From assembly GCF_009805705.1 (NCBI RefSeq), contig NZ_VSMB01000002.1, positions 124,001 to 188,000 on the forward strand: a stretch of 64,000 nucleotides of DNA, in the 5' to 3' direction. Both the position numbers and the translations under genes were made by a program. The number at the start of each line of letters is the position of its first letter. Within the stretch, counting starts at the first letter, position 1. Shown in pieces: positions 14,019 through 49,602 of this stretch. The notes beneath the pieces were generated by a model. The model searched no databases. It worked only from the letters and a program-made list of their open reading frames with translations, and was not told the DNA's origin. Origin of the DNA: Ruania rhizosphaerae (lineage in GTDB: Bacteria > Actinomycetota > Actinomycetes > Actinomycetales > Beutenbergiaceae).

Positions 14019-14081
14019 CGCATCTCCGCTCGTCGTCGATTCACCGGGTTGCACCCCGGACTCTTGTTCTCCGCCCCTGGC

Positions 14082-32478: not shown

Positions 32479-35400
32479 CTACTCGGGCTGGCGCCGGTGG
32501 CGCACCACGAGCAATGTGCCCGTGCCGAGCAGCAGCAACAGGATCGCCGCCATCGGCGCCCAGCCGATTGAGGCACCGGTGACCGGCAGCTCCGGCGGCT
32601 CCTCCGGCGGGACGCAGTCCTGCGCATCCTGCGAGAGACCGTTGTGGTCGATGCCGGCGACGTTGCGGAAGCCGGCTGGTTCGCCGGATCCGGGCTCGCC
32701 GCAGCTGAACGTGGTCGCGTCAGTCTGTTCACCGATCGTGGCGGTGACCTGCACCTGGTAGGTGTGGGTCCCATCGGCTTCCAGGGAGACGTCTGTCGCG
32801 ACGACGTTGGCCTCGGAACCCTCCGATCCCTGACCGCTCCAGGACGAGGCCGCGATGACCCCCTCGGGTGTGGAGACGATGGTCGCGGAGGTGACCTCGA
32901 TCCCGGTGCCGAAGCGCAGCTGGTCGGTGAGGGTGTAGATACCCTCGACAGCCCCGTCGTTCGTCGCGGTGATCTCGTAGGTCACGGTCCACTCGCCGTC
33001 CGCGTCCACGACCGGGTCGCCGGTGACCTGCTTGACGATCTCGATCGACGGCAATGGTGCGCAGTCGGTATCGGTGGCCTCGTTACCGTTCTCGTCGGTC
33101 AGGGTGGCTGCGTTGTTCAGCCCCTGTTCGAGGGTGTTCGACCCTCCTGGTTCGGTGCAGGCCGGTGATCCGGTGCCATCGGCATCGGGTTCGTCGAACT
33201 GCATCGGGACGTTGGCGAGCACAGTCACCGTGTAGACGTGCGGTGCGTAGTCCTCGGAGTCGAGCCCCGCGAGCATCACATCCGTCGCGATCCGGGTATC
33301 ACTGGCGCCGTCGAAGCCCGCATTGAGCATCACACCCTCCGGTCCGGCCAACTGCACACCATCGACGGTGACCTCGGCAGCGAAGAGGAACTCATCGTCG
33401 AGGTCGTAGGTCGTGGCCTGACCACCGACGTTACCGACAGTGATGTCGTAGACGACCTCCCACTGCCCGCCACCGACGGGGGTCGCAGTGACCAGTTCCT
33501 TGTCGAGGGTGGGCTTGCCGGGAAGGATGCACTCCTCGTCCTCCTCCTCAATGCCGTTCCAGTCCACCGTGGCCTGGTTGTCCAACGCACCGGGGGCTGG
33601 GCCACCATCGGCAGTGGTGCACACTCCGTCCGTGGGTACCTCGACGTCGAACACATCAGCCGCATACCGCACGGTCACTTGATACATGTGCTCGACCGGT
33701 CCCTCGACCGCACCGGCGATGGCCTGGTCGGTCACGATGACCGTGTCATCGATGCCATCGAAGCCGTCGTTGATCACAGCACCCGGGGCATCAGTGGTGA
33801 CGTCCTGGACACCGATCACCTCGATACCCTCACCAGCCGCGAGCTCGTCGGTGAGGTCATAGGTGCCCTCACCGTCACCGGAGTTGGTCACGAGCAACTC
33901 GTAGGTGACGTCATAGACACCGTCCTGGTCCTCGACCGGCTCCACCGGTCCCGCGAGGGACTTGATGAGGTCGATCAGCGGAAGCGGGGCACACACGTCC
34001 TCGCCGCGGTCCTCACCGTTGTGGGTGAGTTCGGTCGAGTTCGCCAGACCGCCGCTTTCACCCGATCCGGGCTCCGGGCACTCCAACGCGTCCGGGGTGA
34101 CCGTCTCGAGGTCGAGGGAAACCGTCACGTCCACCTGGTACGTGTGCTCGCTCTCCTCGGGCAGCGTGACGTCGGAGGAGATCACGTTCTCCGCCGCACC
34201 TTCATCGCCGAGACCGGTCCAGCCCGGGTTGGTTTCCACACCCTCAGGTGCGGTGGTCACACCAGCGGACTCGATGATGATGCCCTCGCCATACAGCAGC
34301 TGATCAGTGAGGTCGTAGTCACCTGCGGCACCACCGGTATTCGTAGCGACCAGCTCGTAACTGATCGTCCACGTCCCGTCGCCGTTGGGCACCGGTCCCT
34401 CGCTGATCGTCTTGGCAATGTCGATGAGCGGCAGCGAGGCACAGACGTCGTCCTCGTCAACGATCCCGTTGTGGTCGAGCTCGGTGGAGTTCGCGAGCCC
34501 GCCGCTCTCACCCGATCCGGGCTCCGGGCATTCGAGCACCGATGGATCGATGGTCTCTTCGTCCAGCTGGACGATCACCTCGATCTGGTAGGTGTGCGAG
34601 GCATCCATCGCGAGCATGATGCCGTCGGCGACGACGTTCTCCGCCGCGCCCTCGTCACCCAGGCCCGTCCAGCCGGCGTTGGTCTCGACACCCTCAGGTG
34701 CGGTGATGATCCCGGCACTGGTGATCTCGATGCCCTCGCCATACTGCAACTGGTCGGAGATGTCGTACTCCCCGGCCGCGCCGCCAATGTTCTCGGCCAC
34801 CAAGTCGTAGGTGATCGTGAACGTCCCGTCACCGTTCGGCACCGGACCGTCCGAGATCGACTTGTCGACGACGATGGCCGCCACGGAGGTGCACTCCTCA
34901 TCAGCGTCGGTGAGGTCGTTGTGCTCGACCTCGGCCGTGTTAGCCAGACCGCCACCGTCAGCACCGGGTTCGGCGGGGCACGCCCCGACATCCGGAGGAC
35001 CTTCGATCCCCTCGGCCATCCCGAGCACGACCTCCACCTGATAGGTGTGCACTCCACCACCAGGCAGGCTCACACCCTCAGCGATCACGTTCTCTGCAGC
35101 GCCCTCAGCACCCAGACCCGTCCAACTCCCGTTCGTGGGGAGACCAGCGGGGCTGCTTCCCACGATGTCCGATGAGACGACGTCAAGGTCGCCACCGGCG
35201 GTCATCCGGTCGGTCACGTCGTAGTCGCCATCGGCTGCGCCGTCGTTCGTGGCGACGACGTCGTAGGAGACCGTCCAGGTACCGTCACCGTTCGGCACGG
35301 GACCATCCGTGATCGACTTCTCGACCCCGATCGAGGGCAACTCGGCGCACGCCCAGTCGTCCTCGGTCTCACCCGTGGACTTGGTCAGCTCGGAGGTGTT

Positions 35401-38400
35401 CGTGAACGCCCGATCGGTCGTTTCACCCTCCGCGCCGCATGCGGTCGGGTCGTCCTCACCCGATCCCGCGCCCTCGAGCTGCAACGGCACATCAGCGATG
35501 ACCGTTATCTCGTACACGTGCGGCTCATAGTCCGGGTTGTCCATGCCCTCGATCTCGGCAAAGTCGGTGATCGGCAGGTTCTCCTGCCCATCCCATGCCG
35601 GATCGGACAGCGTCACATCATCAGGCGATTCTGTGACCTCGGCCGAGGTGATCGTGGCCTGATCGGTGAAGTGCAACTCATCGGCCAGCGCGTACTCGGC
35701 CGCCGGGACCTCGATGCTCTCCACCACGATCTCGTAGACGATCTCCCACTGCCCGTCACCGATCGGAGTAGCCGATACCAGGTCCTTGCTGTGCGTCGTA
35801 TCGCCCAGGACGGTGATACCGGCCGGATCACAGTTGATGTCCGGGGCCAACGGGTCACCGTTCTCGTCCACCGAATCCGGTGGGGTATCTGCACCGGCGC
35901 AGGCCGTGTTGACGATGTCATCTTCATTGTCAGGTTCTTCCAGCACGATCTCGAACTCGTGGGATGCCGACTCACCAGGCGCCAGCTCATCAATGGTGAA
36001 CGAGCCACTGTCATAAATGTCGTCATCGACGACGATGTTGGTCAGCGTGCCCTGACCGGTGTTAGTCACTACGATCCGGTACGGCACCGTGTCACCGACG
36101 TGGTACTCGGGGTAGGTCTCCGCCTCGTTCGCATCGATCCAATCCTCATCGGTGGCATCCTCCAACGCCACATCCGGATCCAGGACGTACTTCTTCAGAT
36201 CCGCGGAGTAATAGGTGGCGATCGAGGTCTCCGCCGAGGTCCGCATGACCAGGCGCGTGTCCTCGGCCCGACCCTGCGCCCGGTTCACCAGTACATCTTC
36301 ACCTTCCATGCCGTCGGTGAGGATCGGGACGGTGAAGTTGAACGCGCCCCGCGGCTCCAGCTCGCCGGTGATGACGCGCACGGCCGTCGCATCCGCGGTG
36401 AAATCCGTGGTCCACCCCACCGTGTTACCGGTCGTGTCCCCCGCCGCACCATTCATCGGATCAGCCGGGTCGTCGGAGAGCGTCTCCGGAGGTGCCGTCG
36501 TGTAGTACACGGTCTCCTCGTCCATGCTCACCTGGACCGGGCCACTGAGCTGGTACGTGCCGGACATATCGGTCCCACGACCATCACCGTTATACGGAAG
36601 AATGTCGATCGTGTCCGTGAACACCTGCGGCGACGGATCCTCGGAGACGAGGTCCACAGTCCAGGAGCCCTCACCCACACCATCACCGTTCACGTTCGGG
36701 ATGAGTTCCTGATCGGCCGTCTTCACAATCGACGTGGCCCCAGCGGTATTGATCGTCACCGCCGCCGTCGCTGGATCACTCGGAACGCCGCCGATCTCAC
36801 CAGTGACCGAGTTCACCAACCGGTCACCACCATCAACATCCTCAGAAATATCGACGTCGTAAGACCAGGTGTTCGTCGTATTCGTCGGCACATCATCAAT
36901 GACCCACGTCAGGATCTGCTGACCCTCAGGGCCGGTCCCGATCTCATCCGGCTCCTGCGGCGCCGAACCAGGCACATAGGTCGCGCCGACCGGCATCGTG
37001 TCTTCCAACACGTAGCCGTCCACCGTCTCTGCGATGCTTCCCGTTCCCTGAGCCGTGTACAACAGATCGAACGTCGCCGAACCACCCGGATCCACCGTCG
37101 AGGGATTGACCTGCTTGTCCACCACCGGCGTCACCGTCGAGATCCGCAAGATGTCCCGCCCCGACGCCGCGAACGGGTAGCGCGCATTGTCCGTCTCCGT
37201 CCCCGCGGTGGGGATATCGGCCAGATCGGTGCTCCGGTTCTGGTAGGCCCAACCAGCCTCGTTCTGACGGAAGAAGCCTGAGAACGTCCAGACATCGTCT
37301 TCCGCCTCGAGACCGGCATCAGTATCAATCGTCTGGGTCACCCGCAGCGCCGGCCGCGAAGCTAGCGTGACCTCTTCGCCGGGGCCAATGTCGAATGTCG
37401 TGCGCACCGCACGGACGGTCGACAGATCGCCAGGAAGGGTGGTCGTCCAGTTCAGGCTCTCGTTGCCACACGGCTCCATGCCGTTGGGATCATTGTAGGG
37501 GTCGGGATTCACCAGGTACTCGACCGTTGTGCCGAGCGTTTGATGCCCTTCGTTGGCGTCTGTGACGGTCTCGCCCGTGTACGTGACGTAGTCGGAGTCC
37601 AGAATGGTGCACAAGCCACCCTGGGTCGGATTATCAGTGGCGTTGGCGTAGTTCACCGCGACATTCGACTGCACTTCGGTCCCCGGCGTGACGCGGTACT
37701 GATCCGTCCACGCACGAGCACTCGACCCCGTATAGTCGGCACGCCAGTTGGCGACACCGAAGCCGGAGAGCCAGTTGTTGGCGGAGGCGTTGTTCTCCGT
37801 GTCGTCCTCGATCGTGGCACCACCAGCAGAGACATACGTCGGCGCATCCGCCTGTAGATTGAGCTGGCCACTGTTCTCATCGGTGATGACCCGGATCTGC
37901 ACCTCACCAGAGGCCACCGCCACCTCAGCAACCGGCAGCGACCCACCAGTCGAATCCTCAGTCGGTACCTGCGTGTGGCTGTAGTCGATGCCAGTCAAGG
38001 TCAACTGATACGTCGAGCCCGAGCCTGTGAGCGTGCAGTCATTGACGAACGGCGCGATTTGCTCCTCGGGGTTGTCCCCTCCCGAATACGGGTGCCCCGT
38101 CGCAGCCCCCGACGTGAACGCCGTACATCCGTCGGGACCGAGCTCCATCGTCGCGCCCACGGTGTTGTCCATCGTGAGGGTGTACGTCACGCTGTCTGGA
38201 CCGTCGGGGCTGAACGCTCCGTGGACGAGTGTCCAGTTGAACGACATGTCCCTGGAATCCGGGTTGCTCTCGGTCTTCCCCGCGTTCTCGTCCCAGCGCA
38301 TGTCCATGAAGAATTCGTTCTGCACGCCGAGCTCGTCGAGATCAGCCTCCTGATCGGCGATCTCGCCAGACATCGACACGAACTCACCGTCTTCGGCAGT

Positions 38401-38874
38401 GACGGTCACCGACGCGTTCAGCCGCAGGGCGGTGCCCTCATCAAATGTCCCGCCGTTACACACCAGGGTCGCGCCGTCGTCGAGGATCTCCGACTCCGGG
38501 TCGAGCTCGGGGTCGTCATCGTGGGTCAAACACGCGGGCGGGATCTCCTCGAACACCGCACCCTCGACGGTCATGGTGATCGTGACGTTGTCGACGGGCT
38601 CGTTCCCGGGTGCCGCCGCGTCATCGTTGACGTTGGCCCACCACGTGGCTGCGATCGAGTCACCGGTCTGAACGGTGTCGGGAGTGTCGTCGTCCCACTC
38701 CCCCTCAAGCTCGTAGACCGTCGCCGCCTGCGCCGGCGCAGCGACGATCATGCTTGCGATCAGGGTTCCCACCAGCGCCAGAGCCAGCGTGGCAACCCAT
38801 CGCCCGACCCCCGTCGCACGCGACCACGGCCCCTCGGTGACGCGTGACGAACCTGCATGACGAATTGCACTCAC
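32479..38874 (-). CDS. Giant LPXTG-anchored surface protein with tandem adhesin-like modules
   Basis: A 2131-residue secreted, wall-anchored protein. The signal peptide runs to about residue 50 (ending APAQA|ATVYELE). The C-terminus has the sorting signal LPVTG (2096-2100), a hydrophobic helix and an RHRRQPE tail, so sortase should attach it to peptidoglycan. The body is acidic, Thr/Asp/Gly-rich beta-sandwich material of the DUF11/isopeptide type, including seven modules of about 153 residues in the C-terminal half. The GTG start has GGGAGGGA about nine bases upstream. It probably acts in adhesion or as a surface layer. The divergent TetR gene at 39174 shares its control region. No sortase gene is in the window. 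Confidence 0.9.
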   Translation of the reverse strand: MSAIRHAGSSRVTEGPWSRATGVGRWVATLALALVGTLIASMIVAAPAQAATVYELEGEWDDDTPDTVQTGDSIAATWWANVNDDAAAPGNEPVDNVTITMTVEGAVFEEIPPACLTHDDDPELDPESEILDDGATLVCNGGTFDEGTALRLNASVTVTAEDGEFVSMSGEIADQEADLDELGVQNEFFMDMRWDENAGKTESNPDSRDMSFNWTLVHGAFSPDGPDSVTYTLTMDNTVGATMELGPDGCTAFTSGAATGHPYSGGDNPEEQIAPFVNDCTLTGSGSTYQLTLTGIDYSHTQVPTEDSTGGSLPVAEVAVASGEVQIRVITDENSGQLNLQADAPTYVSAGGATIEDDTENNASANNWLSGFGVANWRADYTGSSARAWTDQYRVTPGTEVQSNVAVNYANATDNPTQGGLCTILDSDYVTYTGETVTDANEGHQTLGTTVEYLVNPDPYNDPNGMEPCGNESLNWTTTLPGDLSTVRAVRTTFDIGPGEEVTLASRPALRVTQTIDTDAGLEAEDDVWTFSGFFRQNEAGWAYQNRSTDLADIPTAGTETDNARYPFAASGRDILRISTVTPVVDKQVNPSTVDPGGSATFDLLYTAQGTGSIAETVDGYVLEDTMPVGATYVPGSAPQEPDEIGTGPEGQQILTWVIDDVPTNTTNTWSYDVDISEDVDGGDRLVNSVTGEIGGVPSDPATAAVTINTAGATSIVKTADQELIPNVNGDGVGEGSWTVDLVSEDPSPQVFTDTIDILPYNGDGRGTDMSGTYQLSGPVQVSMDEETVYYTTAPPETLSDDPADPMNGAAGDTTGNTVGWTTDFTADATAVRVITGELEPRGAFNFTVPILTDGMEGEDVLVNRAQGRAEDTRLVMRTSAETSIATYYSADLKKYVLDPDVALEDATDEDWIDANEAETYPEYHVGDTVPYRIVVTNTGQGTLTNIVVDDDIYDSGSFTIDELAPGESASHEFEIVLEEPDNEDDIVNTACAGADTPPDSVDENGDPLAPDINCDPAGITVLGDTTHSKDLVSATPIGDGQWEIVYEIVVESIEVPAAEYALADELHFTDQATITSAEVTESPDDVTLSDPAWDGQENLPITDFAEIEGMDNPDYEPHVYEITVIADVPLQLEGAGSGEDDPTACGAEGETTDRAFTNTSELTKSTGETEDDWACAELPSIGVEKSITDGPVPNGDGTWTVSYDVVATNDGAADGDYDVTDRMTAGGDLDVVSSDIVGSSPAGLPTNGSWTGLGAEGAAENVIAEGVSLPGGGVHTYQVEVVLGMAEGIEGPPDVGACPAEPGADGGGLANTAEVEHNDLTDADEECTSVAAIVVDKSISDGPVPNGDGTFTITYDLVAENIGGAAGEYDISDQLQYGEGIEITSAGIITAPEGVETNAGWTGLGDEGAAENVVADGIMLAMDASHTYQIEVIVQLDEETIDPSVLECPEPGSGESGGLANSTELDHNGIVDEDDVCASLPLIDIAKTISEGPVPNGDGTWTISYELVATNTGGAAGDYDLTDQLLYGEGIIIESAGVTTAPEGVETNPGWTGLGDEGAAENVISSDVTLPEESEHTYQVDVTVSLDLETVTPDALECPEPGSGESGGLANSTELTHNGEDRGEDVCAPLPLIDLIKSLAGPVEPVEDQDGVYDVTYELLVTNSGDGEGTYDLTDELAAGEGIEVIGVQDVTTDAPGAVINDGFDGIDDTVIVTDQAIAGAVEGPVEHMYQVTVRYAADVFDVEVPTDGVCTTADGGPAPGALDNQATVDWNGIEEEDEECILPGKPTLDKELVTATPVGGGQWEVVYDITVGNVGGQATTYDLDDEFLFAAEVTVDGVQLAGPEGVMLNAGFDGASDTRIATDVMLAGLDSEDYAPHVYTVTVLANVPMQFDEPDADGTGSPACTEPGGSNTLEQGLNNAATLTDENGNEATDTDCAPLPSIEIVKQVTGDPVVDADGEWTVTYEITATNDGAVEGIYTLTDQLRFGTGIEVTSATIVSTPEGVIAASSWSGQGSEGSEANVVATDVSLEADGTHTYQVQVTATIGEQTDATTFSCGEPGSGEPAGFRNVAGIDHNGLSQDAQDCVPPEEPPELPVTGASIGWAPMAAILLLLLGTGTLLVVRHRRQPE
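32700..35800 (-). repeat. Seven tandem modules of about 460 bp inside the LPXTG gene
   Basis: Module starts, each a KS/KT/KE/KQ-type strand followed by a GDGxWxVxY strand, fall near minus-strand 35790, 35330, 34870, 34420, 33970, 33510 and 33050. Two adjacent modules (34870 and 34420) share long almost identical DNA, for example the CCCGATCCGGGCTCCGGGCA segments near 34070 and 34520, which points to recent duplication. Confidence 0.85.
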
Positions 38875-39173
38875 GAGCAGTCCCTCCCTCAGATGTGCTG
38901 CGCTTCGCCCATGTGGAGGGCTCTGCGATACTTCGTGCTCTCTGGACTGGACAATTCACCAGCACCCCTGCCTCGCCTGAAGACCCGGGGCGCTCATCGC
39001 TCGCCAGCGAGCGATGAGCCGACTGTATAACAGGGGATCCGAAATTGCGATACCTGTCACATATCGCACCAGGACGCCGCATAACACAGAATGCGCAGCA
39101 CCGCATGGCCAGAGTGAACAAGCGTCCCGGTAGAATCTCCAGAGCACCACGAGGGCGACTGGGGGATCACGCA
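38875..39173. promoter_or_regulatory. Divergent control region: perfect palindrome and TGCGATA repeats
   Basis: The 299-bp gap between the LPXTG gene and the first TetR gene contains a perfect 12-bp inverted repeat, GCTCATCGCTCG-CCAG-CGAGCGATGAGC (38992-39019). A second inverted repeat, TGCGATA-N9-TATCGCA, spans 39046-39068. A third TGCGATA lies at 38924-38930. The region is visibly richer in A/T than its surroundings. This fits binding sites of the adjacent TetR regulator controlling both directions. Confidence 0.65.
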
Positions 39174-39749
39174 ATGGCAGGTGGCCGGGCCGATAGCGGA
39201 TCGAGCGCGCGGGCCGATCTCGTTGCTACGGGGATCCGCATGTTCGGCCAGCACGGCTTCGGCCTGGGACTGCGTGAGATCGCCGCCGAGGCGGGCGTGA
39301 CAGCCGGCTCCGTGACCTACCACTTCGGAGGAAAGACGGGCTTCCTCGCCGCCTGCGACCGTCAGGTTCTCGACGGCGCTCGGATCTATCTACCAGCCGT
39401 GATGGCCTCAGGCGAGCGTGAGGTGCAGCTTCGTGGCAACGACCGGACCCACCTGCACCTTCTCCGATACCTGATGCGCAGTCTCGCTGAGTCGACCGCA
39501 CTGGTGGAGCCGTTCATCGAGATCCTCGTGGACGCCACTCGTACCGAGGTGCTCGCACACTTCCAGGCGGAACATCCGGACCCAGGGTGCGTCGACACAG
39601 CCGCGAGGGACGTGATCCGGCGGACTCTGGGCGTAGCGATGCTCGACCATGCCCTGACCGCTCCCACTACCGCCGAGGAACTCCAAGCCATGCTCACCTC
39701 GTGGCGCAATATCGGCAGAGACACGATCGCGGTCTACCGGGCCCGCTGA
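39174..39749 (+). CDS. TetR family transcriptional regulator
   Basis: A 191-residue TetR protein. The N-terminal HTH runs from about residue 12 to 55 (ATGIRMFGQHGFGLGLREIA, then GVTAGSVTYHFGGKTGF). The C-terminal helical domain would bind a ligand and dimerise. The ATG at 39174, with GGGGGA about nine bases before it, gives a standard start; longer in-frame starts pass through the control region. It is divergent from the giant LPXTG gene and probably controls it. It is a clear paralogue of the TetR at 41974 (both have YHFGGKxGxxxACDxxVL). Confidence 0.88.
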   Translation: MAGGRADSGSSARADLVATGIRMFGQHGFGLGLREIAAEAGVTAGSVTYHFGGKTGFLAACDRQVLDGARIYLPAVMASGEREVQLRGNDRTHLHLLRYLMRSLAESTALVEPFIEILVDATRTEVLAHFQAEHPDPGCVDTAARDVIRRTLGVAMLDHALTAPTTAEELQAMLTSWRNIGRDTIAVYRAR

Positions 39750-39797: not shown

Positions 39798-41600
39798 CTA
39801 TGGCTGGACCACCTGGAATGTGACTGAGTACCAGGCGCCTTCAGCCCCTGATCCCATATCTACGTAGCGGACCGCCATCGTCGACTCACCGATCACCTGA
39901 GGGCTGCTGACGAAGGTCATCGGCGAACCATTGGCCTCGTGAACCAAGGACGAAATCTCGCCGTTGCGCCGGAACTGCATCCCCCAACCAGAGTCCCCGA
40001 CGGCGGTGATCAGGATGTCGTCCAGGTCACCGTTGCCGTTCACGTCCCAGGTCTCGAGCGGGACGTCGTCACCTTCGCTGATGTTGGTGATCTGTGGCGC
40101 CAGCAGATCCACCGGGTCACTCGTACTGAGCTCGGATGCCTCCCCATCGACGATCTGCCGCGCATCGAACGTGGCGCCCTCGGCAACCGGAATACTCTCC
40201 GGGACCACCGACCAGGTGCCGTTCGCCGTGACTGCCGTGGTCGCAATGACCTGGTCGAGCGCACCCAGGATTTCCACCGTTGCGTCCGGAACACCGGTAC
40301 CGGTGATCTCCGGCATCACGCGGTACGTCGTCGCAGGGAACGGGTCGATGGCCGGTGGTTCAGGCGCCGGCTCTTCGGTGGGCTCCTCGGTCGGCTCTTC
40401 CGTCGGTTCCTCAGTCGGTTCCTCGGCGGGGTCTTCAGTCGGCTCGTCGGTCACTCCCGCGCCAGGGGTGTCGGCGGGCTCATCCGCCGGATCACTGGGG
40501 GGAAGGATGGGTACCTGCGGCGGCTCTTGTTCGGGAGGTGCCACGGTCACGGAGCCGGTTGGCGACGTGGTCGGATCCTCAGCGGGTTCCTGCTGAGCGT
40601 CATCGTTGTCACGGTCATCGTCGGTGGGTGGCGCCGGCGGAGCCGTGCTCGGCGCAGGTGCCGGGGATGCGGAGGCCGAGGGTGTCGGGGGTGCAGCGGA
40701 CGGGTCGCCGGGCGCGTTCCAGGCGAACGCCAGCACTGGGATGGCAACCGCTGCGGCCACAACCACCACAGCGCCGGCCACCTGACCTCGTGACTTCGTG
40801 GCCAACCAGGAGCCGGCGGCAGCATGGCCCAGGTGCGGGACCAGCCCGGCGAGCAGCAGGAGCATACCCGCCTCGTTCAGGCGCGCCGAGGCATGCGAGA
40901 GGTCCAGCAGCACAGCCTGGCAATGTTCGCAATCCTCCACGTGGTCCTCGATCGTCCGCGAACGCCGAGAACTCACCTTGCCGCGCTGCCATGCCGCCAG
41001 ATGCTTGACCACCCTGCGGCACTCCTGAGGTGCGCCGTCGCCATTGACATGCGCATCGAGCCAGGCGGTTCGCAGCCGCTCGCGAGCGCGATAGGCCAAG
41101 GCTGCCGCACTGCTGGCGCTGAGCCCGAACTGCACGCCAACATCCTCGAGGGGCCGACCTTCGACGTCCACGAGCCAGAGCACCTGGCGCCACCGGTCCG
41201 GCAGCGTCCGGAACGCCTTCGTCAGCAGCATCTGATCGAGGACTGCCCCTTCGCGGGTTGATGATCTGTCATCAAGCACGTCGTGAGACTCGAGCGGCAT
41301 CTCCGGACCGCGGGAGCCGATGCGCAGGGCGGCACGCCGCACAGAGGTCGTGATGTAGGCGCGCACATGCTGGTTCGGCCCACCGCCAGAACGTACTGCT
41401 TGCAGCACCTGCATGAACCCGACCTGCACGGCGTCATCGGCCGCCGACTCGTCGAGAACGCGCCGTGCCGCTGCGACGGCGGCCGGTCGGTGTCGCTGGT
41501 AGATCTCCGCGAATGCCTCAAGATCGCCGCCGCGCACTCGGTCGAGCGCCTCGGCATCATCGTTGGGCGCTACAGTCCCGACATCGGGCGCCTCATCCAC
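39798..41600 (-). CDS. Membrane-tethered ECF sigma factor fused to anti-sigma and extracellular domains
   Basis: A 600-residue multidomain protein. Sigma-70 region 2 spans about 18-95 and region 4 about 125-180 (TLPDRWRQVLWLVDVEGRPL, ASSAAALAYRARERL). A zinc anti-sigma-like motif H220-x3-C224-x2-C227 (HVEDCEHC) follows, then one membrane helix (about 274-294). A Pro/Thr/Glu linker (298-418) with EEPTEEPTEEPTEEP could cross the wall. Two Ig-like beta domains end the chain (about 420-500 and 500-600, the latter with a calcium-like DVNGNGDLDDI). The start is GTG with AGGGAG upstream. ECF factors with such C-terminal extensions are known in actinobacteria (for example ECF52-type); release presumably needs proteolysis. 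It is convergent with one TetR gene and downstream of the other. Confidence 0.88.
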   Translation of the reverse strand: MDEAPDVGTVAPNDDAEALDRVRGGDLEAFAEIYQRHRPAAVAAARRVLDESAADDAVQVGFMQVLQAVRSGGGPNQHVRAYITTSVRRAALRIGSRGPEMPLESHDVLDDRSSTREGAVLDQMLLTKAFRTLPDRWRQVLWLVDVEGRPLEDVGVQFGLSASSAAALAYRARERLRTAWLDAHVNGDGAPQECRRVVKHLAAWQRGKVSSRRSRTIEDHVEDCEHCQAVLLDLSHASARLNEAGMLLLLAGLVPHLGHAAAGSWLATKSRGQVAGAVVVVAAAVAIPVLAFAWNAPGDPSAAPPTPSASASPAPAPSTAPPAPPTDDDRDNDDAQQEPAEDPTTSPTGSVTVAPPEQEPPQVPILPPSDPADEPADTPGAGVTDEPTEDPAEEPTEEPTEEPTEEPTEEPAPEPPAIDPFPATTYRVMPEITGTGVPDATVEILGALDQVIATTAVTANGTWSVVPESIPVAEGATFDARQIVDGEASELSTSDPVDLLAPQITNISEGDDVPLETWDVNGNGDLDDILITAVGDSGWGMQFRRNGEISSLVHEANGSPMTFVSSPQVIGESTMAVRYVDMGSGAEGAWYSVTFQVVQP

Positions 41601-41973
41601 GATGTACTCCCTGGCACTCGCCTAGGGATACACGCGGGCCGGAACTCATCCTTCGAATCTAACAGGATCGTCTCCCAAAGCAGCAGGGCAGCCGACTGAG
41701 AGTGACGCGCGTCGCACAATAACTGAACTATCGTTCAATGACGTGCCACGAGCACGGGAACGACATCGCCAGCACCACAGACTGATTCCAGGAATGGTGA
41801 TCGGGGCCCGGCCGCGCATCAACCGTGATCACCGCGGCGTCATCGATCTGCTGCGAGAGTCCGCGCTTCTGGACGACCTGGGCGATTCTCCGTGAGCGGT
41901 CAATGAATGATCTTCACGGCTTGATGGAGCCCATTCTCCACCTTATTCCTGCCCAACGTAATGAATTGCTGAG
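41601..41973. promoter_or_regulatory. 373-bp gap with a TetR-type operator and a possible gene relic
   Basis: The gap separates the sigma-factor gene from the second TetR gene. It holds the inverted repeat TGAAC-TATC-GTTCA (41724-41737), a shape typical of TetR operators. Immediately after it an ATG opens a 15-codon frame. Another frame from GTG 41743 runs 51 codons to a stop near 41897 (containing MVIGARPRINRDHRG) with no recognisable homology. The last 60 bp are A/T-rich. It may be a decayed TetR target gene whose operator survives. Confidence 0.5.
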
Positions 41974-42567
41974 CTAGTCAGCGTTGGTCTCAACAAGCAT
42001 GTCCGGATTCTCCTCGATCCGCGCGATGAGTGGCAGAAACTCTGTCTCCCAGGCGGTCATCACGAACGCGACCGCCGGGTCCAGACCGTCGGGCCGTCCC
42101 ACCGCGAAGTCGAGCATGGTCGCACCGAGTCCGAACCGGACGATGCGGCGCGCTCGCTCGCGAAGCTCGTCTGGCGACTCCCCCCGGTTCGATCCGAGCA
42201 AGCCATACACATGGGAGGTCAGGCGCGAGACCAGCGGACGCGCCAGCGGTGCTCCTTCTCCCAGGCTGCGCATGCAGTAGTACAGGACGGACTCAAAGTC
42301 ATCGTCATCAGCCAGTTGCGGCCGAACCACCCCTTCAGCCGGGAAGAAGATCGGCAGCACGCGGTCGACGATGGCCAAGACACGCCGATCACAGGCCTCG
42401 CGCAGACCCTCCTTGCCGCCGAAGTGGTATTGCACGATGCCGGCCGCCGCCGTAGCTCGTGAGGTGATGGTCCGGATGCCCACATCGAATCCCTCGCGGC
42501 CGAAGGCGTCGATGGCGACCGTGACGAGGCGGTGCTTGGTCGGCAGCGGGTTGCGTGTTTGGTTCAC
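41974..42567 (-). CDS. TetR family transcriptional regulator
   Basis: A 197-residue TetR regulator starting with GTG. The HTH is in residues about 10-55 (AIDAFGREGFDVGIRTITSR, AAAGIVQYHFGGKEGL). The C-terminal part is helical, with no recognised ligand pocket. It is paralogous to the TetR at 39174, and both flank the sigma-factor gene. The ribosome-binding site is poor (AGAGACGGA), so the exact start is uncertain. The nearest candidate operator is downstream, at 41724. No efflux pump, the usual TetR target, is nearby. Confidence 0.85.
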   Translation of the reverse strand: MNQTRNPLPTKHRLVTVAIDAFGREGFDVGIRTITSRATAAAGIVQYHFGGKEGLREACDRRVLAIVDRVLPIFFPAEGVVRPQLADDDDFESVLYYCMRSLGEGAPLARPLVSRLTSHVYGLLGSNRGESPDELRERARRIVRFGLGATMLDFAVGRPDGLDPAVAFVMTAWETEFLPLIARIEENPDMLVETNAD

Positions 42568-42709: not shown

Positions 42710-43705
42710 TCAGTCGGCCATCGCGACGGTGTCTTCGGCATGCTCGGCCCGCACATCACCGGTCTCGCCGTCCCGCACGGCGCGACGGCCGAGGACGATC
42801 GTGTAGAGCCAGTAGGCAGCCAGCACCAGGGCTCCGATGGTGATCTTCACCCCGGTGGGCAGGCTCGACGGCGTCACGAATCCTTCGACGAGCCCACTCA
42901 CCCCGAGCACGACCACCAGGCCGATGGCCACAGTGAAGACAGACCGGCCCTCTTCCGCGAGCGCGCGCGATCGGGTGCGTGGTCCCGCGAAGGCCCAGGC
43001 GCCGAACAGCCTCAGACCGGCGCCGGCGGCGATGAAGATCGCCGAGAGCTCCATCAGCCCGTGCGGCAGGATCAGCCCGAAGAACACATCGAGGTAGCCG
43101 TGCTCAGCCATGACAGCTCCCGCCATCCCGACCCCGACCGCGTTCTGCACCAGGACGAACACCGGGAAGACGCCCGTGATGCCGCCGGCGATGCACTGAG
43201 CGGCGATCCAGGCATTGTTGGTCCACACCTGGGCGGCGAAGTCCGGAGCGGGGTAGTTGGAGTAGTAGGCCGCGAACGCCTGCTCTGCATACTGCTCGCG
43301 CTGGCTGGGAGTTCCCATCTGCGCGAGCAGCTCAGGGTCGGCTGTGGCCCGCATACCGGCGACGATGGCGATCGCGCAGAAGAACACCATCGCGGCCACC
43401 GTCAGCCATCGTGCCCGGTAGAACGCAGCCGGCAGGGAGATGACGACGAACCGGGTGATGTCGCTCCAGGCTGGCTCGTGGGCCCCGGCGACGACGCCAC
43501 GCGCACGGGCCAGCAGCCCGCTCAAGCGCGCGATGATCTCCGGATCGGGCGCGCTGGTGCGCACCTGGGAGAGGTGGGTGGCCGTGAGCCGGTACAGCTG
43601 GATCAGCTCGTCGGCCTCGGCACCGGTGCGCTGACGCGCGCGCGTCAGCTGGTCAAGCCGATCCCACCGCGCGGCATTGACCGCGACGAACGCATCCAGG
43701 TCCAC
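42710..43705 (-). CDS. Stage II sporulation protein M family (SpoIIM/DUF95) membrane protein
   Basis: A 331-residue integral membrane protein of the SpoIIM/DUF95 family. The N-terminus (VDLDAFVAVNAARWDRLDQL) is the typical cytoplasmic helical start. At least five membrane helices follow, including the LPHGLMELSAIFIAAGAGLRL segment of the family. In non-sporulating actinobacteria these proteins pair with RDD genes, and their role is unknown. The GTG at 43705 is chosen over a frame running 57 codons further into the divergent gene. There is no ribosome-binding site, and only 19 bp separate it from the opposite RDD start, so the mRNA may be leaderless. Confidence 0.88.
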   Translation of the reverse strand: MDLDAFVAVNAARWDRLDQLTRARQRTGAEADELIQLYRLTATHLSQVRTSAPDPEIIARLSGLLARARGVVAGAHEPAWSDITRFVVISLPAAFYRARWLTVAAMVFFCAIAIVAGMRATADPELLAQMGTPSQREQYAEQAFAAYYSNYPAPDFAAQVWTNNAWIAAQCIAGGITGVFPVFVLVQNAVGVGMAGAVMAEHGYLDVFFGLILPHGLMELSAIFIAAGAGLRLFGAWAFAGPRTRSRALAEEGRSVFTVAIGLVVVLGVSGLVEGFVTPSSLPTGVKITIGALVLAAYWLYTIVLGRRAVRDGETGDVRAEHAEDTVAMAD

Positions 43706-43724
43706 ACCAGCTAATCTGCCATAG
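43706..43724. promoter_or_regulatory. 19-bp divergent start region, probably leaderless
   Basis: Only 19 bp separate the GTG of the SpoIIM-type gene from the ATG of the RDD gene. For the plus strand TAATCT lies about seven bases before the ATG, the position of a -10 box for a transcript starting at the ATG itself. Neither gene has a Shine-Dalgarno sequence. Confidence 0.5.
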
Positions 43725-44762
43725 ATGAACCCTTCGGTGACGCCACCCGCTCCCCCGGCGCCTGACGTAGTGGCTACGGCGGCGAACCCGTACGCCACGT
43801 CGGCCTCGCGAAGCGCACCGCCGGGAACCTCCGCTGCCAGGTCCGGTGCTGCTGGCCCTGGCGCGCACGGGGCCACGACCCGGGGCGGCTCTGTCCGCAG
43901 CTCTCACGCTGCTGATGGCACCAATGCTCCCTCGGACCCATTTCGTCCGGTGGGACTGCCGACGGATCTGATCGTCACCGGGGAGGCTGTGGCGCTCGAG
44001 GCACGCCCGGCGATGTTGCTGAGCCGGGTCGGGTCAGGGTTGATCGACCTGGCTGTGCAGGGACTCGGCGGCGTACTGGTGCTCATCATCGGGTTCTCGT
44101 TGGCCTCCAACGATGCCCAGTTCGCCGTCGCATCGATCCTCGCCCTTGTCACGGCCATGGTGGCCATCCCGACGGCGGTGGAGACCATCACACGCGGGCT
44201 GTCGGCTGGCAAGGTGGCCACCGGGATCAGGATCGTGCGTGACGACGGCGGTCCCGTGCGCTTCCGGCAGGCGTTCGTGCGAGCGCTGACCGGGGCGATC
44301 GAGATCTGGGTCTCGGTCGGGTCGCTCGCGATCATCACTTCGCTGGTGAACTCGCGCGGGAAGCGCCTCGGGGATCTCCTTGCCGGGACCTACGCCGTGC
44401 GCAGCCGCGCTGGCACCGGCATGCGCGCCCCGCTGCTCATGCCGCCGGATCTGGCCGCCTGGGCGGAGCGCGCCGACATCCGCCGCCTGCCACCCGGACC
44501 GGCCCTGCACGCCCGGATCTTCCTCTCCCGCACCAACGCGATGCGACCCCAGGCTCGGCAACAGGCAGCACACGCTCTAGCAGCCGCCATCGAGCCCTAT
44601 GTCGCACCGCCGCCCCCGTGGGGTACCCACCCCGAACGGTTCCTCGCGGCCGTTCTGGTGGCTCGGCGAGACCGGGAGTACGCCACCGCCATGCGCAGGC
44701 AGGCTGCCGAGCACGAGGCGGCCGAACAGATGCGCCACCTGCCGTTCGGGGTGGCTGACTAA
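43725..44762 (+). CDS. RDD family membrane protein
   Basis: A 345-residue protein with a disordered Ala/Pro-rich N-terminus (1-75) and an RDD domain (about 95-230). The domain has the signature RVGSGLIDLAVQG, membrane helices near 105-125 and 132-152, and SAGKVATGIRIVRDDGGPV. A soluble, Arg/Ala-rich C-terminal tail of about 100 residues follows. RDD proteins are of unknown or transport-related function. The gene is divergent from the SpoIIM-type gene, a conserved actinobacterial pair. Confidence 0.88.
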   Translation: MNPSVTPPAPPAPDVVATAANPYATSASRSAPPGTSAARSGAAGPGAHGATTRGGSVRSSHAADGTNAPSDPFRPVGLPTDLIVTGEAVALEARPAMLLSRVGSGLIDLAVQGLGGVLVLIIGFSLASNDAQFAVASILALVTAMVAIPTAVETITRGLSAGKVATGIRIVRDDGGPVRFRQAFVRALTGAIEIWVSVGSLAIITSLVNSRGKRLGDLLAGTYAVRSRAGTGMRAPLLMPPDLAAWAERADIRRLPPGPALHARIFLSRTNAMRPQARQQAAHALAAAIEPYVAPPPPWGTHPERFLAAVLVARRDREYATAMRRQAAEHEAAEQMRHLPFGVAD

Positions 44763-44958: not shown

Positions 44959-47900
44959 CTATTCGCGGGCCCGCGCCCTGATCATCAGCGCAGTACCGAT
45001 GAGCAGCAGCAACCCGGTCAGTGCCAAGGGCAACACCGGTGCAGCACCGGTATTGGGCAGCGCGTCCCCATCGTCAGGCTCGGCCGGGCCGCTCGGAGCG
45101 TCCGGCACCGTGACGTCCACACTCGCCTCGTCCTCCGCGGCGATGGCGGGCATGTCGGGATCGACAGGGTGAGCGACCGTCGCGACTGCGACGTTCTCGT
45201 ATCCTTCGGTCACGTTCTCCTGCGTGATGACACGGGTGTCGCTCTCACCGGCGCCGAGGGCATCGATCTCGTAGGTGAGGTCGAGAGCCTCATCGGTGAC
45301 CTGCACTCCTGTGAGGTCACTGTTGCCGGTGTTGGTGACAGTGATCTGCCAGTAGGCCGACTCCCCGGAGACGAGGGTGACACCCTCGGCCCAAGGACCG
45401 TCCTCGGTAGCCGACACCTGCTTGACCACATCGAGGCCCGGCTCGACGCCGTAGTACCACGAGGAGTCGGTGCCGGTCAGCTCCTCGCCGAGCGCACTGG
45501 TCGCGGCCACCCTGACGGTGTTCTCGTACTGGCCCGCCTCGGCGGTACCGGTAGCCGTCAGTTCGACCGACTCACCCGGTGCAAGCACCGGGATCGTCTC
45601 GCTGAACACCTCCGCACCCGAGCCGTCCACGTCGGAGACACTCACATCCTCCAGCTCGAACGAGTCGCTGGTGTTGGTCACCGTGTAGGTCCAGGTGACC
45701 TCGCTGCCCGGAACCACCCGGACACCGGGGGCCTGCTCGACATCCTCACCGTTGGTCGTCTTGACGACGGTCAGCCCGTTGTCACCGGCCAGGTACCAGG
45801 ATGAATCGCTGGCCGTATACCTGGCGTCGTCCAGGATCTCTCCGGACTCGTCGACGACCACCATCGTTGCTGTCACGGTGTTCTCGTACTGACCCGCCAC
45901 CGCGACATCCGTCGCCGTGAACGTGCGCGACTCATCTGGAGCCAAGGGGCCGGACGCGGTCGAGGACGGGGTCAAGGTGCCCTCGGTGCCGTCACCGGCG
46001 ACGAAAGCGTCCTCGATGTCGTCGACGTCGAGATAGGTGTTGCCGGTGTTCGTCACCTCGTAGGTCCAGACAACGTCCGAACCGGTAGCCACGAGAGCAC
46101 CCGGTGCAGCCCCGTACATCATTCCGTTGGTCGTCTTCACCACCTCGGCAGCCGGTGCGCCACCGAAGTACCAGGAGGTGTCGGTCGCAGTGAGGTCCTC
46201 ACCACCGAGCGGATCGGTAGCCGTGGCAGTCACCGTGTTCTCGTACTGCCCCTCCACCGCGACACCGCTGGCCGTGAGCTCAACGGACTCGCCCGCAGCC
46301 AAGGTGGCGATCGTGTCGAAGTAGACCTCAGCACCGTCGGCGTCCACGTCAACCACGGACACATCCGTCAGGGCGAGGGTCTCGCTGGTGTTGGTCACCG
46401 TGTACGTCCAGGTCACATCGTCACCGGAAAGTGCGAAGACGCCCGGCGCTTCGTCGACGTCCTCACCATTCGTCGTCTTCACAACCGTGAGGCCCGTCTG
46501 ATCTGCCAAATACCAGGAGTCGTCCGAGACCGGGTCTACCGCGGGGGCGTTCGCCAGCGGCTCGTCGGCTTCGTCCACGACGACTGGAGACACGGTGACG
46601 GTGTTCTCGTACTGACCCGCCACAGCGACATCAGACGCCGTGAACGTGCGCGAATCTCCCGGAGCCAGCGGATCCGAGTCAGCCGAGGTCGGGACCAGCG
46701 TGCCGGTGGAGCCATCACCTGCGGTGTAGGCATCGGCGATGTTCGACACATCCAGGTAGGTGTTCCCTGTGTTGGTCACCTCGTACTCCCACACCACGTC
46801 CGCACCCGTCTCGACCAGTGCACCAGGGGCGGCGTCATACTCGGTGCCGTTGGTGGTCTTCACCACCTCCGCCGATGGGTCGGCCGGAGCGAACAGCGTC
46901 GCATCGTTCGATGTGCCCGTCACTGTGCTACCTGCGTAGGTGGCGCTGAACGTCGCGGCGTTGACCCACTCGTCGAGCGCGACGGCCTCGCCATCGAGCT
47001 GAATCGGCACCACCAACTCCACCGAGTCACCAGAGGCAAGTTGATCGACCGACACACGGAACGCCGTCGCATCAGTGAAGTCGGTCGACCACGTACCATC
47101 GGCGGCGCTGGTCGCGTCCGTGGAGTACTCCGCGACCGAACCTGCCGGCGCTCCGAACACTTCGCCGTCGAGCACCGCTGCGACACCATCGACCGCCGGG
47201 AGCAGGTCGAAGATGACCAGATCCGTCACCGTCTCCGGCAGGAAGTTCGTCATCGTCACCCGGTACGCTCCCGTACCGTCCGCAGCGAGTTCGCTGCGCA
47301 CACCAAAGGCCTCGCCATCGGCACTGGCTTCCTTACCGGTCGCCAGCGCACCCGCCGTCACCGCAGCCGAGATGTCCTCAGCGAACACGATCTCGTCCAG
47401 CGGGGAGAACTCGAACACATCGTCCGCGAGTCCCGCGTCGCCCATCGGGAGATTCTCGTAGTCCGGGTGATCGACGTGACCCCAGGCCTCCACGTCCAGA
47501 CCCTCACCGTAGGCGGCCAGGGTTACCTCGACAGGGATGTCGTAGCAGGAATGCTCGCGGTCCGCGTCATAGATGTCCAGGGAGTCGAGCTGATCGAGGG
47601 TGATGGTGACCACCTCGCGCAGGTTTCCGTCGTCGGTGACTGTGGACGTCGTCACGGTCGCACCATCTCCGATCGGCGACGCCGTCGCGTTCGCCGCGCT
47701 CACGCCGGTGTCGGCGTCGTAGGTGACGCCCACCGGGAGCACCGCCTCCAGCGTCGCGTTCGGGTAGTCCCGCACCGAATCCAGGTTCCAGATGCACACC
47801 TGGTAGGTCGCCGCTCCCCCGATCGCCACGGAGTTCGGAGCGTCCACCGAGACGTTGACCGGCACGGCCTCAAGGATCGTCTGGGTCGCGGTCGACTCGT

Positions 47901-49419
47901 CCGAGAGCGGCTCGCCGTCCTCGAACTCGGCACTCTGGATGGCCGTGTTCGTGAACGTGAGCGGGCCATCACCCAGATCACCGGTGTACGTCGGCACACC
48001 ACGCATCTGTACCCGCAGGCTGCCGCTGCTGATCGGGTTCCCTGCATCCGGAGAGAGTTGCAACCGCCATCCGGTCACATACTCACCCTCGGGCACCGCG
48101 TTCGAGCTCGTGGTGCTGAATTGGTAGTCGGCCGTGGTGCCCACACTGCTGGTGTTCTGCTCGCCGGCGCCGGACTCGATCCACGTGCCCGGGTCAGCGG
48201 ACGTCGTGTACTCGAGTACGAATGGCACATCTTGGATCTGCATCGCGGTGTCGAGGATGACGCGGAGCCTGTAGATGCGGTTGGCTTCGTACCAGGCCGC
48301 ATTGTCACCCGTCGCGGACGAGTCCTCGATGGTCCAGAACTCCAACGGATCCGCCGACTCGAAGTTCGCGGACACGTTGTAGATGCCCCTGTTGTTCTCG
48401 ATTTCGCCGTTGCTGACCGTCCGATCCGCGGGGCTCTTGGAGATCCCGAACGACGTGCCCGGCCCGAAGTCGGTGATCGGGTCACCGGTCGCGCTGGCGT
48501 CCGGGAAGTCGTCGTGGGCGGTACCGTCGGCGTCGGCGACGGCGAGCTCGACCGTATTGGTCGGCGGCGTCTCCGGCGGATCCTGCGCCGGGAATGCGGC
48601 TTCGGGGTAGGACACGACCAGGTAGCCGGCGTTGGTGCCGCCGCGTCGGATGTTGCGTTCATCGGTCCAGGTGGCGGTGATGCCGGTGGCCGCGTCGCCC
48701 GCGAACGTCCACGTTCCAACGCCCCCGTCGGAAGCGACGATCTCCGCACCGACCGGGAGCTCATCGGTCAACACCGGGTCCGATCCGACGAAGTTCGAGT
48801 CGGCACCCCTCACCTGGAAGCTGTACGTCACCTGACGACCATTCGTCGCAGGCGTGGTGTCCGCACTCTTCGTGGGGTAAAAGTCGAATGTTCCCGTCAC
48901 CGACGTCCGCACAGAGTCGGTCGGCGTGTCGCCAGAAGGCGTCGAACTACCCGTGACCGTCGCTTCGAGGACGGTGTCGGGTGTGTAGGTGGAGATGTCG
49001 TCCTGGGTGACCGCAACTGTAAAGGACGTCACGGAATCCTCGATGTCCTTCATCACCAGGGAGACGATGCCGGTGGCGGGGTCGAAACTGTACGACTCCA
49101 CCGGCGAACCAGCACCCGTGGGAATGACGTCGACACCGATGCCCTCGGGCAGCTGGATCTCCATCGTGATATCGGTGGCAGGTGTACCGGGGCTCGCCTC
49201 CGGCAGATTCATCGTCACGGCGTACTCGTACGGATCCGTGACCGCGACATCGGTGGGGCCGTCGATCGAGACGGTGTAGTCACCGGGGGCGGCATATGCG
49301 GCCGGCACGCCGACCACGCCCAGCACCAGAACGACACCCGATGCCACGATCGCTGCTGCCAACCTTCTCAGAGACCGCCACGGCGGGCTCCACTCCTCGC
49401 GCCTGGTTTGCCTACTCAT
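44959..49419 (-). CDS. Giant LPXTG-anchored surface protein with alternating DUF11-type modules
   Basis: A 1486-residue wall-anchored protein. The signal peptide runs to about residue 43 (ending VPAAYA|APGDYTV). The sorting signal LPNTG at about 1454-1458 is followed by a hydrophobic helix and RARARE. The N-terminal 850 residues are acidic beta-rich material. The C-terminal part is a series of DUF11-like modules, each opening VVKTTNG and containing WxYxVTNTG, arranged A-B-A-B plus a divergent fifth. The ATG at 49419 has AAGGAGAGG upstream. It resembles the 32479 protein in architecture but not in module sequence. An adhesin or structural surface role is inferred. The HTH gene 183 bp upstream on the same strand may control it. 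Confidence 0.9.
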   Translation of the reverse strand: MSRQTRREEWSPPWRSLRRLAAAIVASGVVLVLGVVGVPAAYAAPGDYTVSIDGPTDVAVTDPYEYAVTMNLPEASPGTPATDITMEIQLPEGIGVDVIPTGAGSPVESYSFDPATGIVSLVMKDIEDSVTSFTVAVTQDDISTYTPDTVLEATVTGSSTPSGDTPTDSVRTSVTGTFDFYPTKSADTTPATNGRQVTYSFQVRGADSNFVGSDPVLTDELPVGAEIVASDGGVGTWTFAGDAATGITATWTDERNIRRGGTNAGYLVVSYPEAAFPAQDPPETPPTNTVELAVADADGTAHDDFPDASATGDPITDFGPGTSFGISKSPADRTVSNGEIENNRGIYNVSANFESADPLEFWTIEDSSATGDNAAWYEANRIYRLRVILDTAMQIQDVPFVLEYTTSADPGTWIESGAGEQNTSSVGTTADYQFSTTSSNAVPEGEYVTGWRLQLSPDAGNPISSGSLRVQMRGVPTYTGDLGDGPLTFTNTAIQSAEFEDGEPLSDESTATQTILEAVPVNVSVDAPNSVAIGGAATYQVCIWNLDSVRDYPNATLEAVLPVGVTYDADTGVSAANATASPIGDGATVTTSTVTDDGNLREVVTITLDQLDSLDIYDADREHSCYDIPVEVTLAAYGEGLDVEAWGHVDHPDYENLPMGDAGLADDVFEFSPLDEIVFAEDISAAVTAGALATGKEASADGEAFGVRSELAADGTGAYRVTMTNFLPETVTDLVIFDLLPAVDGVAAVLDGEVFGAPAGSVAEYSTDATSAADGTWSTDFTDATAFRVSVDQLASGDSVELVVPIQLDGEAVALDEWVNAATFSATYAGSTVTGTSNDATLFAPADPSAEVVKTTNGTEYDAAPGALVETGADVVWEYEVTNTGNTYLDVSNIADAYTAGDGSTGTLVPTSADSDPLAPGDSRTFTASDVAVAGQYENTVTVSPVVVDEADEPLANAPAVDPVSDDSWYLADQTGLTVVKTTNGEDVDEAPGVFALSGDDVTWTYTVTNTSETLALTDVSVVDVDADGAEVYFDTIATLAAGESVELTASGVAVEGQYENTVTATATDPLGGEDLTATDTSWYFGGAPAAEVVKTTNGMMYGAAPGALVATGSDVVWTYEVTNTGNTYLDVDDIEDAFVAGDGTEGTLTPSSTASGPLAPDESRTFTATDVAVAGQYENTVTATMVVVDESGEILDDARYTASDSSWYLAGDNGLTVVKTTNGEDVEQAPGVRVVPGSEVTWTYTVTNTSDSFELEDVSVSDVDGSGAEVFSETIPVLAPGESVELTATGTAEAGQYENTVRVAATSALGEELTGTDSSWYYGVEPGLDVVKQVSATEDGPWAEGVTLVSGESAYWQITVTNTGNSDLTGVQVTDEALDLTYEIDALGAGESDTRVITQENVTEGYENVAVATVAHPVDPDMPAIAAEDEASVDVTVPDAPSGPAEPDDGDALPNTGAAPVLPLALTGLLLLIGTALMIRARARE
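45160..46880 (-). repeat. A-B-A-B module duplication in the second LPXTG gene
   Basis: Module A copies begin near 46870 and 46150, module B copies near 46500 and 45780, and a divergent module near 45435. The A to A and B to B distances are both about 720 bp, so an A-B pair was duplicated as a unit. A modules contain NTYLDV and GTLxPxS; B modules contain SVELTA and GAEVxxxTI. Confidence 0.8.
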
Positions 49420-49602
49420 GTTTGCCTCTCCTTCGAACTGCCCTGGTGGTCGTGCTGTGTGGTGGTCTTCGGGTGCGCCTCTGCTTGCCCGGCAGCCTCG
49501 CCGGGGCCGTGCGCCACAGTCATCCCGTCGAGCGACGGCGAGATTACGGTTGCTCGCCTTCACACCGTCAGATCGAGCGTGAAGATGTGCCCTGGCGGCC
49601 CG

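Follow-up and report, generated by a model that had tools for sequence, protein, structure and literature searches.

The sigma factor gene described here lies in a 64,000-nucleotide stretch of a Ruania rhizosphaerae contig (hereafter the window) and encodes, in a single chain, an ECF sigma factor, a zinc-type anti-sigma segment, a membrane helix, a long linker and an Ig-like outer part. It is reasonably likely that this protein works as a one-piece transmembrane device, in which the sigma factor would be held inactive in cis and freed by regulated intramembrane proteolysis. Directly observed were the domain order, the zinc motif, the hydrophobic helix, conservation among relatives, homology of the sigma and zinc parts to SCO4117-like proteins, and M50-family genes in the genome. 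One-piece sensors of this kind are known and widespread; the variant described here has an Ig-like ectodomain instead of a carbohydrate-binding one.

Domain architecture of the fused sigma factor

According to the list of open reading frames, the gene occupies exactly 39798..41600 on the minus strand and starts with GTG. The sequence AGGGAG just upstream of the start codon is, judged by eye, plausible as a ribosome-binding site. The gene and the parts of its product are as follows.

39798..41600, minus strand: fused ECF sigma / zinc anti-sigma / membrane / Ig-like protein, 600 aa (ORF, Pfam, NCBIfam, hydropathy)
41322..41504, minus strand: sigma region 2, residues 33-93 (Pfam Sigma70_r2, E 3.5e-9, above cut-off)
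41073..41231, minus strand: sigma region 4, residues 124-176 (Pfam Sigma70_r4_2, E 3.5e-7, above cut-off)
40917..41021, minus strand: zinc anti-sigma segment, residues 194-228 (zf-HC2, E 3.3e-5, above cut-off)
40725..40781, minus strand: membrane helix, residues 274-292 (mean hydropathy 2.69 over 19 residues; charge asymmetry)
40329..40721, minus strand: Pro/Ala/Glu/Thr/Asp linker, residues 294-424 (composition)
40164..40310, minus strand: Ig-like (Big_6-like) core, residues 431-479 (Pfam Big_6, E 3.8e-5, below cut-off)
39801..40103, minus strand: conserved C-terminal domain, residues 500-600 (alignment of 12 ectodomains)
40017..40046, minus strand: DVNGNGDLDD calcium-like loop, residues 519-528 (sequence; within the last domain)

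In addition to the two Pfam sigma regions, the NCBIfam model TIGR02937 (sigma70-ECF) matched the protein above its cut-off. The zinc motif reads C194-x25-H220-x3-C224-x2-C227, and all four ligands were invariant in an alignment of 20 proteins, namely the window protein and 19 of its 21 relatives (L072, a split gene, and L077, the most distant relative, were left out). The H-x3-C-x2-C part was present in the window protein and in all 21 relatives. Among the aligned proteins, zf-HC2 and Sigma70_r2 were each recognized by Pfam in 20/20 and Sigma70_r4_2 in 19/20. The zinc domain shares its chain with the ECF sigma factor, and its putative role is inhibitory. A sequence-only reading of the same DNA had proposed the order sigma, zinc segment, helix, linker and Ig-like part, on which Pfam, NCBIfam, hydropathy and conservation agree. 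Its further proposal, a sigma factor fused to its probable inhibitor and sensor, is borne out by the family matches, the invariant zinc ligands and the conservation.

Residues 274-292 were the only segment of the window protein to pass the hydropathy threshold. Lysine and arginine occur within the 15 residues before this helix and are absent from the 20 residues after it, consistent with a predicted topology of sigma part inside the cell and Ig part outside. Many relatives have two or three hydrophobic segments by hydropathy, and the topology may therefore vary within the group.

The linker as delimited comprises 131 residues (28% P, 15% A, 14% E, 11% T, 11% D), close to the 120 residues given earlier; a PT repeat at residues 386-415 was matched by Pfam below the cut-off. 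The Big_6 family was found at E up to 0.01 in 17 of the 20 aligned proteins. The C-terminal domain (residues 500-600) is probably all-beta. D-x-D-x-D-G is a calcium loop pattern, which the DVNGNGDLDD sequence in this domain resembles; calcium binding is putative. The form D-x-N-x-N-G-x-x-D-D was present in 4/4 members of the window clade among the 12 aligned ectodomains (DVNGNGDLDD, DVNNNGEIDD, DVNGNGDLDD and DVNSNGELDD). The three aligned members of the paralogue clade all had acidic equivalents (DLDQDGEEDD in two, DYDDDGDRDD in one), and the loop was not found in the other five ectodomains. Thus, the loop pointed out in the sequence-only reading is present at residues 519-528 but was found in two related clades only. 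At E up to 1, Pfam gave six matches in the window protein, none of them to NPCBM or any other CBM.

Structure modeling added little. Two single-sequence models reached mean pLDDT values of 50.2 and 53.9; in the former, residues 500-600 were mostly under 50. Such models are too poor to support claims, including one that the zinc segment docks onto the sigma part. A PDB fold search with the ectodomain model returned no match at E 0.001 or better; the best, non-significant match was to a biofilm-associated protein C region (E 0.017). Sequence searches against solved structures gave three weak matches, all to SigE, and two chance-level matches with the ectodomain sequence.

Relatives and distribution

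Relatives of the window protein along its whole length were found in three genomes of the genus, with 65% identity in G017 and 56% in G019; the G020 relative was recovered in two pieces (60 and 69% identity). Their presence argues that the sigma protein is not a chance product. The own genome also encodes a paralogue of the same design, 35% identical over residues 10-600. At the family level, 17/24 genomes, the own genome counted, had a match at E 1e-20. The fusion had earlier been called uncommon, which does not fit the wider counts: with query residues 1-300, a sigma/zinc relative was found in about a third of genomes, 66/198 in the order (E 1e-15) and 86/246 in the class (E 1e-12), where both counts include the own genome, the class sample overlaps the genomes of the order, and short frames as well as plain sigma factors are among the matches, so that the numbers refer to genomes with a sigma/zinc relative, not to proven fusions.

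Fifteen fused proteins of other families were scanned for their outer parts. NPCBM was found in two, I-set with a ricin-type lectin in one, fn3 in one, DUF11 in one (and in one more under the cut-off) and DUF3344 in one; in 8/15 the outer part had no match beyond PT repeats. Judging from these domain matches, evolution seems to have put NPCBM, lectin, fn3, DUF11 and Ig-like parts on one chassis.

Several loci were unusual in their gene structure. At L072:9269-11076 (plus strand, genome G015) the fused gene is divided between two overlapping frames in different phases, one of 433 aa that stops at the linker and one of 175 aa with the Ig-like part, due to either a sequencing error or a real phase change. 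A similar split is described for the S. clavuligerus orthologue in the excerpted text of PMC5826349. In G019, L059:8971-14220 carries two different convergent fused sigma genes near a homologue of giant surface protein 1 (see below); the 1.6 kb that separate the two contain a TetR gene. In several of the loci L121-L145 (families f9 and f10), a fused sigma gene of about 690-1600 aa occupies a common place near upp-like and dnaK/grpE/dnaJ-like genes (named by eye).

Among the 30 loci returned by a genome-contig search, 28 matched linker residues, since the linker is of low complexity; the remaining two, L037 and L054, were weak sigma matches. A plasmid search returned 12 records, all below 60% identity, from Streptomyces (8), Arthrobacter (2), Nonomuraea and Paenarthrobacter.

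Phylogenetic position and comparison with known fused ECF factors

The zinc-type anti-sigma factors RsiW, RskA and RsrA have the release logic suggested here but are separate from their ECF partners (two proteins). A tree was reconstructed from 79 sigma/zinc regions; its root is arbitrary and long-branch warnings were given, so its deepest joins are uncertain. One clade (4 rows, support 100/91) united the window protein with the G017, G019 and G020 orthologues. A SCO4117-like clade of 8 rows from genomes of 5.8-9.9 Mb (support 100/100) stood apart from it in the tree, with the reservation that long-branch warnings apply to deep joins. Both scanned members of the SCO4117-like clade combined sigma with NPCBM, and one of the two had zf-HC2 at E <0.01, under the Pfam cut-off. 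In 7/8 rows of this clade TetR was the direct neighbor, confirmed by Pfam for two of these TetR proteins. Compared by description, the clade matches the SCO4117/ECF52 anatomy and locus in the published excerpts (PMC5826349).

As far as the excerpts of PMC5826349 and PMC8999054 describe them, ECF52/SCO4117 proteins resemble the window protein in that one chain carries a sigma factor, a zinc finger, a membrane region, a linker rich in proline and an outer domain, and in having an adjoining TetR gene (the latter from PMC5826349). The sigma and zinc parts of the window protein are homologous to those of the SCO4117-like clade. In contrast, its outer part consists of an Ig-like domain and a domain with the calcium-like loop, with no NPCBM match, the protein belongs to a separate clade, and giant sortase-type proteins lie near its gene. 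The TetR proteins differ too: those of the window best match TetR_C_25 (under cut-off) and two of the SCO4117-like clade match TetR_C_43. The window protein may therefore be regarded as a homologue of the ECF52 type, not as a demonstrated ECF52.

ECF53 and ECF48 are likewise described, in the parts of PMC8999054 and PMC10766802 consulted, as actinobacterial proteins whose C-terminal fusion consists of a zinc-finger domain followed by one or two membrane helices, as in the window protein. The window protein has the domain features of ECF48/52/53: both sigma regions, an anti-sigma domain of the zinc type in the same chain and, by hydropathy, one helix after it. The same excerpts state that some ECF52/53 proteins have predicted carbohydrate-binding or glycosyl-hydrolase domains (PMC8999054, PMC10766802). 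According to the excerpted PMC8999054, activation of ECF48/52/53 by proteolysis is expected, not demonstrated, and SCO4117 is the best understood member of the three actinobacterial groups. IutY of Pseudomonas putida (ECF243) also combines sigma and a membrane anti-sigma in one chain and is, in that text, the only such sigma factor with a characterized proteolytic mechanism, but it belongs to a Gram-negative and serves iron-starvation cell-surface signaling (PMC8999054). The titles and opening parts of abstracts surveyed made no mention of an ECF fusion that has an Ig-like ectodomain or is paired with LPxTG proteins; full texts may differ.

Gene neighborhood

In the window, the genes are arranged in the order giant surface protein 1, TetR a, sigma gene, TetR b, a SpoIIM-type gene, an RDD-like gene (by eye) and giant surface protein 2.

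32479..38874, minus strand: giant surface protein 1, 2131 aa (DUF7507 repeats, weaker DUF11, LPVTG tail)
39045..39749, plus strand: TetR-family regulator a (Pfam TetR_N, E 2.2e-11; the listed TTG start is probably too early)
41974..42567, minus strand: TetR-family regulator b (Pfam TetR_N, E 2.8e-6)
44959..49563, minus strand: giant surface protein 2, 1534 aa (DUF7507 and DUF11 repeats, LPNTG tail)

The two TetR genes and a giant adhesin had been named as neighbors in the sequence-only reading; they are there, except that there are two giants and one was named. The SpoIIM-type membrane protein (Pfam E 1.3e-41) is divergent from the RDD-like frame (by eye) at 42710-44762, and both frames are about 96% identical in L058, where they lie between the tetR genes and giant 2. 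Elsewhere in the window, at 10669-14054 (minus strand), two adjacent frames have starts that look sulfatase-like by eye.

TetR genes and giant sortase-type surface proteins were found near the orthologue in 4/4 genomes, and giant LPxTG proteins lay at most 4 kb from the sigma gene in 4/4 members of the window clade. G017 keeps the gene order of the window and has one more tetR; at L058:1643-7992 (minus strand) in this genome the giant 1 homologue is split into two overlapping frames (1209 and 955 aa). In G020, TetR lies on one side of the sigma gene and, on the other, a different giant of 2836 residues with LPSTG, SdrD_B and DUF11. The G019 orthologue has other neighbors, among them a TetR, the second fused sigma gene and the giant 1 homologue (81% identity).

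A survey of 60 relatives' stretches (window excluded) and 40 control stretches gave LPxTG proteins near fused sigma genes as a lead. A strict LPxTG protein was found in 10/60 relatives' stretches vs. 0/40 controls (Fisher p 0.005), a cut picked after the table had been seen and applied to loci that are related. The looser sorting motif, which had been coded first, gave 15/60 vs. 6/40, and sorted proteins of at least 700 aa gave 6/60 vs. 1/40. Six stretches did not reach 19 kb, and in four the sigma gene was overlooked by the gene picker. A sorted surface protein directly adjoins the sigma gene in L073 (collagen-binding-type domain) and L132 (SpaA).

TetR was the direct neighbor of 11/79 sigma/zinc genes vs. 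1/648 control genes, as detected with a profile that was itself made from eight TetR proteins encoded at these loci. Four of the 11 cases belong to the window genus and seven to the SCO4117-like clade, with none elsewhere. In the 60 stretches and 40 controls, the recurrent non-sigma neighbors in families f9, f10 and f20 were upp-, tadA-, dnaK-, grpE- and dnaJ-like (named by eye), and they reflect a common chromosomal place rather than function. An origin of the ectodomain from adhesin repeats was considered but drew no support from the Pfam matches, in which no family is common to the giants (DUF7507/DUF11 and others) and the sigma protein (Big_6). A distant relative, L128, has DUF11 in its own ectodomain.

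Upstream elements

Four elements were recognized in the intergenic regions around the sigma gene and giant 1.

41724..41737, no strand assigned: operator-like inverted repeat TGAACTATCGTTCA (given on the plus strand), 5-base arms, upstream of the sigma gene
41656..41666, minus strand: CCTGTTAGATT, extended -10-like (TGnTAnnnT), identical upstream of the L058 orthologue
38998..39013, no strand assigned: operator-like inverted repeat CGCTCG-N4-CGAGCG, between giant 1 and TetR a
39023..39033, minus strand: CTGTTATACAG, extended -10-like, next to the repeat, upstream of giant 1, also at L058 8145

The TGAACTATCGTTCA repeat lies about 125 bases upstream of the sigma gene start. In a whole-genome pattern scan, TTGAACGNNNGTTCA occurred once, at this site; a repeat of the TGAACTATCGTTCA type with one mismatch is expected 0.69 times per window by chance. 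The related motif [TC]TGAACG-N3-GT[TG] was present upstream of the sigma gene in one copy in the window, three in L058 and two in L060, where the gap that holds the copies is also upstream of the giant. All six copies are intergenic and lie on the same strand as the sigma gene. The motif was absent from L059 and L061-L065, and the 40 control stretches contained it once, within a gene. In the window and in one of the three L058 copies it forms a 5-base-arm inverted repeat, which suggests a candidate TetR-type operator. Its presence followed that of a TetR a homologue in four stretches (3/3 with, 1/1 without); the G020 homologue of TetR a is only 48% identical, and the 20-kb stretch of L059 has no TetR a orthologue.

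The CGCTCG-N4-CGAGCG repeat, which by eye has 10-base arms in the window, also occurred at L058 8120 and in 3/40 control stretches (one between genes), and was not found in L059 or L060. CCTGTTAGATT was not found in L059 or L060 either, and CTGTTATACAG was absent from these two loci and from the 40 control stretches. Both sequences look like extended -10 housekeeping promoters. A common ECF promoter of the sigma gene and the giants was sought by eye and with a few patterns and rejected as a candidate: giant 1 and the sigma gene shared only the housekeeping-like CTGTTA(G/T)A, both in the window and in L058. No constant -35 was seen for it, nor any element marking an ECF promoter common to both genes. 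The upstream region of giant 1, beside the divergent tetR gene, looks housekeeping- and TetR-controlled, which makes giant 1 a doubtful target of the sigma factor. The earlier proposal that the giant adhesin gene at 32479 responds to the sigma factor is weakened accordingly, the upstream elements shared with G017 being a housekeeping-like extended -10 and the repeat by the divergent tetR.

Proposed mechanism and alternative explanations

We propose that the zinc anti-sigma segment would keep the preceding ECF sigma domain (residues 1-180) inactive within the same chain. Helix 274-292 would hold both parts at the membrane, and the disordered linker of about 130 residues would take the Ig-like ectodomain through or into the cell wall. 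Upon a signal on the ectodomain or linker, a site-1 protease would cut outside, a site-2 (M50) protease would then cut within the membrane, and cytoplasmic proteolysis would strip the anti-sigma remnant and so free the sigma domain. The signal would probably arise at the wall or surface, since the conserved outer part would sit there. A neighboring TetR acting at the upstream inverted repeat would probably also set the protein supply. The M50 family was represented in the genome by three matched stretches in two open frames; M50 matches were present in all 14 control genomes, so this is weak evidence. For SCO4117, the available excerpt of PMC5826349 reports that a sigma-only truncation still delayed development, less than the deletion did, and simple release may thus not be the whole story.

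The inverted repeat upstream of the gene bears on two other explanations. Activity might be set mainly by the amount of protein, under a neighboring TetR repressor, while the membrane part only stores or localizes the sigma factor. The position of the repeat, the uniqueness of its exact pattern, the related copies in L058 and L060, its absence from L059 together with TetR a and the adjacency of TetR to 11/79 genes all point this way, but the one-mismatch form is expected 0.69 times per window by chance, the adjacency rests on a profile made from the same loci and is confined to two groups, and the entire ectodomain, unneeded for mere storage, is conserved; we regard this explanation as unlikely. 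The TTGAACG repeats might instead be the -35 elements of the sigma factor itself, serving auto-activation and not TetR binding. ECF -35 elements often have a GAAC core, and the constant orientation of the six copies would agree with such a role. SCO4117 was also proposed to activate itself, according to the excerpted PMC5826349. Against this stand the lack, by eye, of a constant -10 partner at a fixed distance, the two copies that are inverted repeats and the empty upstream region of the G019 orthologue, which leave auto-activation improbable.

Other explanations concern what the ectodomain and the giants do. RsrA-type zinc anti-sigma segments act as redox switches, and the zinc segment here could answer the cytoplasmic redox or zinc state, with an ectodomain that is mainly adhesive or wall-holding. 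The non-significant fold match to a biofilm-associated protein would suit this, but the long linker and ectodomain conserved on close relatives suggest sensing outside, and we consider it very unlikely. Somewhat more room, though still on the doubtful side, is left for the giant surface protein genes as the regulon, with the device reporting their assembly as a feedback module. The proximity of giants throughout the window clade and the strict LPxTG counts speak for it. The other neighbors of the G019 gene, the different giant in G020, the flatter counts with the looser motif and the size limit, the post hoc cut and the housekeeping- and TetR-like upstream region of giant 1 speak against it. 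A broader reading is quite improbable as it stands: the sigma/zinc/membrane chassis with exchangeable ectodomains would be an actinobacterial receptor family, wired in this genus to sortase-anchored giants and TetR, and the ectodomain would report calcium-dependent assembly or wall attachment of a surface layer and release the sigma factor.

The small neighborhood and defined upstream element of the window protein would make proteolytic activation directly testable. If the reading as a fused device freed by proteolysis is right, one gene would constitute a complete line from the outside to the promoter, which could be fitted with other sensor domains.
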